A stretch of DNA of 64,000 bases from Bacillus sp. J37. GTDB lineage: Bacteria; Bacillota; Bacilli; Bacillales; Bacillaceae. Under the pieces are notes generated by a model. That model was not told the origin of the DNA. It was given only the letters and a program-made list of their open reading frames with translations, and made no database searches. The stretch is taken from NCBI RefSeq assembly GCF_000518865.1, contig NZ_JAEK01000007.1, positions 124,001-188,000 of the forward strand. Reading direction: 5' to 3'. Positions 3,190-5,165 of this stretch are shown piece by piece. The translations under genes and the position numbers were made by a program. Position 1 is the stretch's first letter. Each line of letters opens with the position of its first letter.

Positions 3190-3389
3190 TTATTAGAATA
3201 AATCATAGCATATGTACAACCAAAGCGTACAGTAATACGTGTCGGTTTTGAGTAATTGTTTTAGTGGTGTTCACATGGTATTCATATTTGGTTCAAAAAA
3301 TTTATAAGGTTCATTCATTGTCTTTATTATAAAAGGGGCAGCTTTACCTTAAATTGTTTCTAAGAATACTATTTATAATCGGTTAGTGG

Positions 3390-3512
3390 AATGGAGCGGA
3401 AGACACTTGACTCCTGCGGGAAGTAGAGGAAAGGCTTAGACCCCACAGGCGAAGCCGTGGAGGCTTAGCTTCCTCCCCGCGGAAAGCAAGTGTCTGGAGC
3501 GCAATGAAACGA
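3390..3512 (+). repeat. GC-rich dispersed repeat (family B), copy 1
   Basis: A GC-rich island in AT-rich intergenic DNA. It starts ATGGAGCGGAAGACACTTGA, contains CTCCTGCGGG, GACCCCACAGGCGAAGCCG and CCCCGCGGAAAGCAAGTGTC, and ends GGAGCGCAATGAAACG. The ends form an imperfect inverted repeat (GAAGACACTTG / CAAGTGTCTGG). Related copies in the opposite orientation lie at 29182-29308 and 50506-50634. No coding potential. Confidence 0.75.
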
Positions 3513-3580
3513 AACTTTTTCTTACGCTACTGATATAAACAACCTATTGAAAAATACCGTCAGATTACCTGACAAACCAG

Positions 3581-3609
3581 TTGTATCAAAGATTTCAGCC
3601 ATCTATGAT
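3581..3609 (+). promoter_or_regulatory. Putative sigma-A promoter of the riboswitch-controlled deaminase
   Basis: TTGTAT (3581-3586), a 17-bp spacer, then TATGAT (3604-3609). Transcription would start near 3616, about 23 nt before the riboswitch aptamer, which leaves the P1 stem intact. A second TATGAT at 3633 would start inside P1 and is less likely. Confidence 0.5.
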
Positions 3610-3638
3610 TATTGTGAACTTAACATATTTCATATGAT

Positions 3639-3709
3639 TTTCACGTATATCCTTAATAATTGGTTTAAGGGTCTCTACAAAGAAACCGTAAATTTCTTAC
3701 TACGATGAA
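3639..3709 (+). ncRNA. Purine riboswitch aptamer (guanine-type residue at the selector site)
   Basis: The segment fits the purine riboswitch. P1 is TTCACGTA paired with TACGATGAA (one bulge). P2 is CCTTAA / TTAAGG with a GG-containing loop. J2/3 is GTCTCTAC, and P3 AAGAAA / TTTCTT closes the loop CCGTAAA, so the GG-CC loop-loop contact is possible. By hand alignment to the xpt aptamer the ligand-contact positions 22, 47 and 51 are U, and position 74 is C, which predicts a guanine-class ligand rather than adenine. Position 24 in J1/2, usually A, is U here. It precedes a deaminase gene. Confidence 0.85.
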
Positions 3710-3749
3710 AAGATGCTTTTACTGGCATATTTTTTCGTAGTTATTTTTG
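3699..3749 (+). terminator. Riboswitch expression platform: terminator overlapping P1
   Basis: The stem pairs 3699-3716 with 3725-3741 (ACTACGA with TCGTAGT, AAAA with TTTT, ATGC with GCAT; one bulge, one mismatch), followed by a T-rich tract. Its 5' arm contains the 3' strand of aptamer P1, so aptamer and terminator exclude each other. This is the architecture of an ON switch, as in the adenine-sensing pbuE leader: ligand binding should prevent termination. Confidence 0.75.
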
Positions 3750-3781
3750 TGTCTTAGTTTAAGATTGGGAGATGATCATAG

Positions 3782-5104
3782 ATGAATATACTCATAAAAA
3801 ATGCACAAATCATTACGATGAATAAGGAAAATGAAATCATCACAGGGGATATACACATTGTGGATGATCTCATAAAAAATATTGGACCTGATCTAACTGT
3901 TCAAAAACCTGATAAAATCATTGATGCAACAGGGAAAACCATCATACCCGGCTTTGTTCAAACACATATTCATCTATGTCAAACCGTTTTTCGTGGTCAA
4001 GGTGATGATTTGGAATTAATGGACTGGCTAAAACAGAGAATTTGGCCATTAGAAGCCGCACATGATGAGGAATCCATATATTACTCTGCGATGCTCGGAA
4101 TTGGTGAGCTCATTCAAAGCGGGACAACAACCATTGTTGATATGGAAACCGTCCACCATACTGAGTATGCATTTAAAGCGATTGCTGAAAGTGGAATGAG
4201 GGCTTTATCAGGCAAGGTGATGATGGATAAGGGAAATGAAGTACCTCTGCCTTTGCAGGAAAACACAGAAAGATCGATTAGAGAAAGCGTCGACTTACTA
4301 GAAAAATGGCATAACTATGATGAAGGCCGGATTAAATATGCATTCTCACCAAGATTTGTTGTTTCTTGTACAGAACAACTCCTACGTGAAGTCCAATCTT
4401 TATCAGAATACTATCATGTAATGGTCCATACACACGCTTCGGAAAATCGTGGTGAGATTGATATTGTCCAAAACGAAACCGGGATGAGAAATATAGTGTA
4501 TTTGGACCATTTAGGTTTAGCCAATAACAGGTTAATTCTCGCTCATTGTATTTGGCTGGATGAAGAGGAAAAACGTATCATCCGCGAAAAAGGGGTTCAT
4601 GTTAGTCATTGTCCCGGATCAAATCTGAAATTGGCGTCTGGTATCGCCGATACACCTTATATGGTAAATGAACAAGTGTCACTCAGCCTGGGAGCTGACG
4701 GAGCGTCTTGTAATAATAATTTAGATATGTTCAATGAAATGAGACTAGCCGCACTCATCCATAAACCAGTACACGGTCCAACCGCTATGGATGCACATAC
4801 TGTGTTTAAAATGGCGACAATTGGAGGTGCGAAGGCAGTTGGAATGGAAAATGAAATCGGGAGTATAGAAATCGGCAAAAAAGCCGACCTGGCCATCTTA
4901 AACTTACACGACTTTCATACCTACCCTTCTCATGGCGTTGATCCAATCTCCAGAATCGTCTACTCTGCCACAAGAGCCGACGTCGAAACAACCATCATCA
5001 ATGGTCAAATCGTAATGGAAAACCGCATCATGAAATCCATCAACAAAAAAGCCATCCTAACAGAAGCCAACCACTCAATCAAACGTTTGTTGGGTCGAAT
5101 ATGA
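3782..5104 (+). CDS. Amidohydrolase-family deaminase of 5'-deoxyadenosine / guanine-type compounds
   Basis: A 440-residue cytosolic metal-dependent deaminase of the TrzA/SsnA/MtaD group (COG0402). Metal ligands appear in the expected places: HIH near residues 62-64 (GFVQTHIHLCQ), His in MVHTHASE near 220, His in ILAHCIWL, and Asp in LGADGASCNN near 310. The stretch LELMDWLKQRIWPLEAAH resembles enzymes annotated as 5'-deoxyadenosine deaminase, but guanine, 8-oxoguanine or methylthioadenosine/S-adenosylhomocysteine deaminase are alternatives in the same family. It starts at ATG 3782 after GGGAGATG. It is a single gene controlled by a guanine-type purine riboswitch with ON architecture, which suggests a purine base or nucleoside induces its own breakdown. 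Confidence 0.8.
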   Translation: MNILIKNAQIITMNKENEIITGDIHIVDDLIKNIGPDLTVQKPDKIIDATGKTIIPGFVQTHIHLCQTVFRGQGDDLELMDWLKQRIWPLEAAHDEESIYYSAMLGIGELIQSGTTTIVDMETVHHTEYAFKAIAESGMRALSGKVMMDKGNEVPLPLQENTERSIRESVDLLEKWHNYDEGRIKYAFSPRFVVSCTEQLLREVQSLSEYYHVMVHTHASENRGEIDIVQNETGMRNIVYLDHLGLANNRLILAHCIWLDEEEKRIIREKGVHVSHCPGSNLKLASGIADTPYMVNEQVSLSLGADGASCNNNLDMFNEMRLAALIHKPVHGPTAMDAHTVFKMATIGGAKAVGMENEIGSIEIGKKADLAILNLHDFHTYPSHGVDPISRIVYSATRADVETTIINGQIVMENRIMKSINKKAILTEANHSIKRLLGRI

Positions 5105-5165
5105 CCCACGGGGACAGGTCCCCTGTTCCAACTTGGACGAGGGACCTGTCCCCCTGTTCCATTCA
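5101..5165. repeat. GGGACAGG inverted repeat (family C), cluster 1
   Basis: Two oppositely oriented units, GGGGACAGGTCCCCTGTTCC and GGACGAGGGACCTGTCCCC, follow the deaminase stop directly. They can fold into a hairpin and may act as a transcript end. Similar units recur at 6950, 7640, 11170 and 17300. Confidence 0.75.

Follow-up and report, generated by a model that had tools for sequence, protein, structure and literature searches.

Well-known guanine riboswitches turn synthesis and uptake genes off. In the adenine riboswitch pbuE of B. subtilis, a terminator takes up the 3′ strand of P1 in its 5′ arm, and the ligand allows expression. An 8-oxoguanine ON switch located before an 8-oxoguanine deaminase gene in Paenibacillaceae was reportedly described by Hamal Dhakal et al. 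in 2023. The existence of an 8-oxoguanine riboswitch is confirmed in the accessible parts of three reports (PMC11625349, PMC9881172, PMC9971707), and the published class is mentioned in one sentence of the accessible part of a fourth, which also describes guanine-II, a guanine ON switch predicted in Paenibacillus with insertions in J3-1 and J2-3 (PMC9295807). An ON arrangement before a guanine deaminase gene is not described in the accessible parts of PMC7373994, PMC9430930, PMC2258182, PMC10907184, PMC7287874, and PMC8191784. A description was likewise not found in the literature searched, where most subscription papers were beyond reach, and we make no claim of novelty in print.

The DNA analysed here (the window) comprises 64,000 nucleotides of Bacillus sp. 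J37 (contig NZ_JAEK01000007.1, positions 124,001–188,000 of the forward strand). Judged by deaminase identity, its source is a Metabacillus; in the protein search, the deaminase shares 97% identity with the orthologue of M. halosaccharovorans and 96% with the M. niabensis one. The genome carries seven purine aptamers, the one in the window included. By reading of the first downstream protein, five of the other six precede xpt, guaA, purE, and two pbuG-like permease genes, and the sixth, which has U74, precedes an MFS transporter gene.

Aptamer and terminator of the window

The sole Rfam match above the gathering score in the whole window is to the purine riboswitch model RF00167, and it stops 58 bases short of an amidohydrolase gene. 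The features of the locus are:

3581..3609, + strand: promoter-like pair TTGTAT - 17 nt - TATGAT (read from the sequence; a weak assignment)
3623..3723, + strand: purine riboswitch aptamer (RF00167, 68.2 bits, E 7.6e-10)
3638..3647, + strand: 5′ strand of P1 (Rfam match, alignment, folding)
3648..3650, + strand: J1/2 with U22, A23, and U24 (Rfam match)
3651..3670, + strand: P2 hairpin with L2 (alignment, folding)
3671..3679, + strand: J2/3 with G46, U47, C48, U49, C50, U51, A52, C53, and one extra A before P3
3680..3698, + strand: P3 hairpin with L3 CCGUAAA (alignment, folding)
3699..3700, + strand: J3/1 with A73, at which the pairing of the terminator begins, and the ligand-selecting C74
3701..3711, + strand: 3′ strand of P1, in which A3705 is bulged; also part of the 5′ arm of the terminator
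3699..3741, + strand: hairpin of the intrinsic terminator, sharing bases with J3/1 and P1 (−15.2 kcal/mol; same position in orthologues)
3742..3748, + strand: U-rich tract TATTTTT of the terminator (sequence)
3767..3771, + strand: ribosome-binding-site-like GGGAG, 10 nt before the ATG (read from the sequence)
3782..5104, + strand: amidohydrolase of 440 amino acids carrying the active-site residues of guanine deaminases; labelled PRK07228 (5′-deoxyadenosine deaminase) by NCBIfam

We take the pocket numbering of J1/2 to be that of published structures, and the GG at 3662–3663 in L2 presumably forms the loop–loop contact. The pocket consists of U22 (3648), U47 (3672), U51 (3676), A73 (3699), and C74 (3700), which is the guanine-I set; most relatives deviate from it at A73. 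The guanine contacts U22, U51, and C74 reported in the accessible part of PMC9295807 are all present in the window aptamer. The sequence-only reading had proposed a guanine-type purine aptamer with C at the ligand-selecting position, followed by a deaminase-type gene. The selecting base is indeed C74, the covariance model scores nearly twice its gathering score of 37, and the downstream gene encodes an amidohydrolase; the guanine-type riboswitch is real. In an alignment of 35 sequences, one of them the window, both sides are changed in 15 of the 23 pairs; as high a count was reached in 0 of 500 shuffles, a comparison that relatedness can inflate. In the family alignment, all seven pairs of P2 are changed on both sides.

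The three-stem junction, U22, U47, U51, A73, C74, and the conserved loops are common to the window and to guanine-I (B. subtilis xpt type). The window differs in being arranged as an ON switch before a deaminase gene and in having a 6-bp P3 and one extra A, and most of its relatives have G73. Guanine-II resembles the window in its predicted ON direction and in a one-nucleotide insertion in J2-3; the paired insertions in J3-1 and J2-3 that define it are not found in the window, where J3/1 has two nucleotides (A73 and C74), and there is no phosphoribosyltransferase gene. The base at position 24 of J1/2 (3650) is U, as had been read earlier from the sequence. Its value as a clue to an altered ligand did not hold up: U24 occurs in 22 of 55 family aptamers and also in 3 of 34 controls (both sets are defined below), so position 24 is not diagnostic and was rejected as the key variation.

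The terminator hairpin starts with A73 and C74 and therefore competes with P1. Since J3/1 and the 3′ strand of P1 lie inside the 5′ arm of the terminator, the ligand should permit transcription, in agreement with the ON architecture that the sequence-only reading had proposed. The same overlap of P1 and terminator is seen in pbuE, from which the window differs in having C74 rather than U74 and in controlling a deaminase rather than an efflux pump. The usual guanine-I behaviour, in which the ligand turns genes off, does not match this layout, and the riboswitch is very probably wired ON. Folding without ligand gives −23.2 kcal/mol for the terminator with P2 and P3, −13.0 kcal/mol for the aptamer alone, and −19.7 kcal/mol for the best fold with the aptamer enforced, energies that ignore tertiary contacts and co-transcriptional folding. 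On this model, the terminator should win without ligand, and the ligand would have to tip the balance. A 43-nt fold as stable as the hairpin was obtained in 1 of 2000 mononucleotide shuffles. A consensus scan listed no terminator on the + strand at the leader, perhaps owing to the interruptions in the stem. The corresponding scan for promoters found no promoter-like site at the leader; TATGAT is kept in 4/4 and TTGTAT in 3/4 aligned Metabacillus leaders.

Two repeat-like stretches flank the locus. Directly after the deaminase stop codon is a GC-rich inverted repeat (5107–5156) with 16-nt arms that are 94% complementary, a candidate dispersed element or terminator. Upstream of the leader, positions 3395–3510 are GC-richer and resemble a dispersed repeat; a search of 3300–3620 found no inverted repeat of at least 12.

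Relatives of the aptamer and nucleotide 73

In the protein search, 80 of 376 encoding loci were retained as orthologous deaminases. A script requiring U20-A23, A52-C53, and U75-A76 parsed 55 of the 80 upstream regions. The covariance model, run on the remaining 25 regions and on nine more, gave six matches with E ≤2.1e-14, one weak match (L034, E 0.0014), and one doubtful match (L064, E 0.087). The aptamer is clearly present at 61 of the 80 deaminase loci, in Paenibacillus, Niallia, Domibacillus, Halalkalibacter, Amphibacillus, Metabacillus, and others (Bacillaceae and Paenibacillaceae). The deaminase gene lacks it in several Cytobacillus and at nine of 16 same-genus loci. U47, U51, and C74 are found in all 55 parsed family aptamers. 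One deaminase-linked aptamer (L053:3864-3932) is missing five bases around the CUAC of J2/3 and is perhaps broken or a sequencing fault. An aptamer of purine type that reads CUAG instead of CUAC is located on the reverse strand of L198, about 100–250 bases from the end; its hairpin seems to include the 3′ strands of P3 and P1 before a T run, and the gene that follows reads like an FAD-dependent oxidoreductase.

Two control sets were used. The first comprises 34 aptamers, namely top-scoring matches and the six others of the own genome, and is biased towards the consensus. The second, chosen to mend this bias, comprises the 40 lowest-scoring matches, with the own genome and six deaminase-linked matches excluded; 30 of the 40 were parsed, 28 with a terminator, and no relative of the deaminase is encoded in any of the 40 stretches at E 1e-40.

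The script found a terminator in 54 of the 55 parsed family leaders. Nucleotide 73 is exactly where its 5′ arm begins in 45 of the 54, compared with 0/33 top-scoring and 0/28 low-scoring control terminators, a comparison that supports the hairpin of the window. On a looser measure (a start from nucleotide 73 to +7), the counts are 52/54 for the family, 3/33 for the top-scoring controls (L004, L006 (U74), and L123), and 12/28 for the low-scoring controls, six of them U74 and six C74. Two of the six C74 cases (L229 and L231) are guaA leaders in which the terminator is further on and the hairpin looks like an antiterminator. Because 12 of the 28 low-scoring controls fit, the looser measure is unspecific and was given up as proof of an ON switch; the exact start at nucleotide 73 is specific.

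The sequence-only reading had overlooked both that nucleotide 73 is G in most relatives and that it is the first base of the terminator. G73 is present in 52 of the 55 parsed aptamers and in all six found by the covariance model (58/61 of the family), and A73 in L008, L009, and L060 among the 55 parsed and in the window. G73 is found in none of the 74 controls (0/34 top-scoring, 0/40 low-scoring). The first set has A73 in 34/34; the parsed part of the second has A73 in 26 and U73 in 4 of 30, and the ten unparsed aptamers lack G73 by eye. Counted as distinct core sequences, the family has 45 with G and 3 with A at this position, and the first controls have 30 with A. The low-scoring controls L215, L216, L222, and L225 are guanine type with U73, so nucleotide 73 is not fixed among guanine-type aptamers.

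The G73 pattern was matched in 17 of 397 genomes sampled from the order, and 14 of the matches precede the deaminase gene. The remaining three are a chance match (L170), one ahead of an NCS2-like permease gene (L164:1463-1538), and one ahead of an adenine deaminase gene (L165:1463-1600), a C74/G73 guanine-type aptamer with the 3′ strand of P1 in a terminator-like hairpin. Within one Paenibacillus genus, the pattern is carried by 29 of the 30 genomes, and it precedes the deaminase gene in all 10 of the 29 that were fetched.

A73 sits in a base triple adjoining the ligand, and G73 in most relatives might reflect another ligand. The family could then sense a guanine analogue (for example, an N2-alkylated guanine, xanthine, or hypoxanthine), with G73 tuning the pocket and the enzyme hydrolysing the analogue. 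The sharp difference in G73 between family and controls argues for such an analogue, as does the existence of N2,N2-dimethylguanine hydrolases among GuaD-like enzymes (PMC13054789); a guanine riboswitch can also bind N2-modified guanines, according to the accessible part of PMC7287874. We nevertheless find an analogue doubtful: the direct ligand contacts are those of guanine-I, A73 occurs in two lineages with the same gene, and U73 occurs in guanine-type controls. Nucleotide 73 is also paired in the terminator. In a count of 88 leaders that takes in L164, L165, and repeated species, hairpins whose first base is 73 match G73 to C in 58 leaders and to U in 4, and match A73 to U in all six A73 leaders (four species); 20 leaders have no such hairpin. 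Thus, the terminator could by itself account for the exchange, with the ligand staying the same.

A quick protein tree with 94 rows requires two changes for A73, which is therefore most simply derived twice from G73. The first change falls in the clade of the window, L008, and L009 (support 93, or 95 with the G73 sister L091); the second is in L060, whose placement is less sure. It is in our view unlikely that the G73 deaminase-linked aptamers, spread over Bacillaceae and Paenibacillaceae, are a further, undescribed specificity class on the guanine scaffold, sensing a derivative that is degraded downstream, and that the three-species clade of the window is an A73 revertant whose specificity may be back to guanine with the wiring kept.

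In the window clade, P1 is bulged, and the terminator of the window is less stable than that of the sister L091 (−15.2 versus −27.4). A degenerate switch in this clade was considered on these grounds and set aside, as A73 has its U partner in the terminator. The core (3644–3704) is identical in three species, a weak argument for retention because the window and L089 are nearly identical in their flanks too. We think that, as far as the sequences tell, the switch has been kept.

The deaminase and the 8-oxoguanine class

The enzyme belongs to NCBIfam PRK07228 (5′-deoxyadenosine deaminase), with 718.9 bits against a cut-off of 522. It falls below the cut-offs of the guanine deaminase model TIGR02967 (259.9; cut-off 375.4) and of the 8-oxoguanine deaminase model PRK08203 (289.6 bits; cut-off 532). 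Among solved structures, whole-length matches are best to MTA/SAH deaminases (225.9 bits), followed by 8-oxoguanine deaminases (193.9) and guanine deaminases (168.8). Taken at face value, the name and these matches would make the gene a 5′-deoxyadenosine (or MTA/SAH) deaminase, with guanine or hypoxanthine signalling purine status. The adenine deaminase gene at L165 (TIGR01178, 538.5 bits; cut-off 472.5) lends this some weight, since a guanine-type aptamer precedes it and sensor and substrate therefore need not match. The active-site residues weaken the assignment. Q67, R191, F192, E221, H255, and D306 are present in 96/96 orthologues (80 from the protein search and 16 from a genus search, partly overlapping) and in E. 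coli GuaD, whereas six other paralogues have M and H-A/S where the orthologues have Q and R-F. By motif, the six paralogues are SAH/MTA-like; five were scanned and none is over an NCBIfam cut-off. We regard 5′-deoxyadenosine deamination as improbable, and the NCBIfam name appears doubtful for PRK07228 members of this type.

The residues expected of a guanine deaminase (Q after β-strand 1, E, H, D, and PRF) are all found in the enzyme. The structurally characterised guanine deaminases of E. coli and human both contain THIHxxQ and TPRF. The window enzyme shares with these two proteins (GuaD and GDA) the HxHxxQ, PRF, E, H, and D residues; it differs in scoring below the model cut-offs and in being closer over its whole length to MTA/SAH deaminases. 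In guanine deaminases, the glutamine after β-strand 1 holds the exocyclic oxygen of guanine (PMC12828455, accessible part). PRK07228 is the third-best NCBIfam family of E. coli GuaD (256.6 bits), after two guanine deaminase models. B. subtilis has a short guanine deaminase. The four PF00383 proteins of the own genome are TadA, ComEB, RibD, and Cdd, each over its cut-off; as all are otherwise assigned, no short guanine deaminase of the B. subtilis (PF00383) type is seen among them. Xanthine dehydrogenase genes are present in the genome (pucD over its cut-off; pucB-, C-, and E-like genes below theirs), grouped with a gene for 2-oxo-4-hydroxy-4-carboxy-5-ureidoimidazoline decarboxylase. The active-site residues, the GuaD match, and the genome content together speak for guanine or one of its analogues as the substrate, and the enzyme is probably a guanine deaminase.

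PRK08203-type 8-oxoguanine deaminases are over the cut-off in 14 of the 30 genomes of one Paenibacillus genus. Thirteen of these 14 loci were scanned with Rfam, and all 13 gave purine matches (49.1–56.8 bits), filed under RF00167. The aptamers, which lie upstream of the PRK08203-type genes (L146-L159), have G47 and A73 in 13/13 parsed; the fourteenth (L149, unparsed) has the same G47 in the alignment. Their terminators start within +7 in 9/13 and at +9 in 4. They are probably the published 8-oxoguanine class. A shortened PRK08203-like gene of another genome (L132) had no Rfam match. All 14 genomes also carry the G73 pattern and thus hold two aptamer types beside two deaminases. The G73 family was first assumed to be the 8-oxoguanine class, an assumption dropped because the PRK08203-type genes have G47 aptamers of their own. 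U47 adjoins the C8 side of the ligand (PMC7287874, accessible part), and U47G would seem to mark the published class.

The 8-oxoguanine riboswitch, too, reportedly turns on the gene of an amidohydrolase-superfamily deaminase, and the window could on that likeness be a Bacillaceae branch of this class, controlling an 8-oxoguanine deaminase. In the aptamers that precede PRK08203-type genes, base 47 is G and L3 is short, whereas the window keeps U47 and has L3 CCGUAAA. The enzyme, well below the PRK08203 cut-off, lacks the C-S pair that accompanies Q in 14/14 8-oxoguanine deaminases. Such a branch is very unlikely, and the aptamer is probably not of the published 8-oxoguanine class. 8-Oxoguanine, which the sequence-only reading had kept among the candidate ligands, is now an unlikely one.

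Proposed mechanism and significance

Without ligand, the terminator would take J3/1 and the 3′ strand of P1, and transcription would stop before the gene. Guanine or a close guanine-like base is predicted to bind the three-way junction through C74, U51, U47, and U22. Binding would stabilise P1, the terminator would be blocked, and the deaminase would be made. The enzyme most likely converts guanine or one of its analogues to xanthine by removing the 2-amino group, and the xanthine dehydrogenase of the genome may oxidise this product. As the ligand would open the deaminase gene and the enzyme would degrade the ligand, the presence of the substrate would induce its degradation. Substrate-induced breakdown had already been suggested from the sequence and, with the guanine-deaminase residues, seems the natural reading. 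The aptamer, its overlap with the terminator, their conservation among relatives, and the pocket and active-site residues are seen in the sequences. We infer the ligand, the direction of switching, the substrate, and the pathway, and consider guanine-induced guanine breakdown by an ON switch with a guanine-I pocket a reasonably probable account of the locus.

Nucleotide 73 serves both the joining region of the pocket and the terminator, with G-C, G-U, and A-U partners. Owing to this dual role, selectivity for the ligand and the switching itself may each limit the other, and the natural A73/G73 species pairs (the window clade and L091) are a ready test of the part played by the nucleotide. If guanine is the ligand, a guanine-I pocket would be coupled to an ON platform and to a gene for guanine breakdown, and a large, uniform gene family would gain a testable function instead of a doubtful name.
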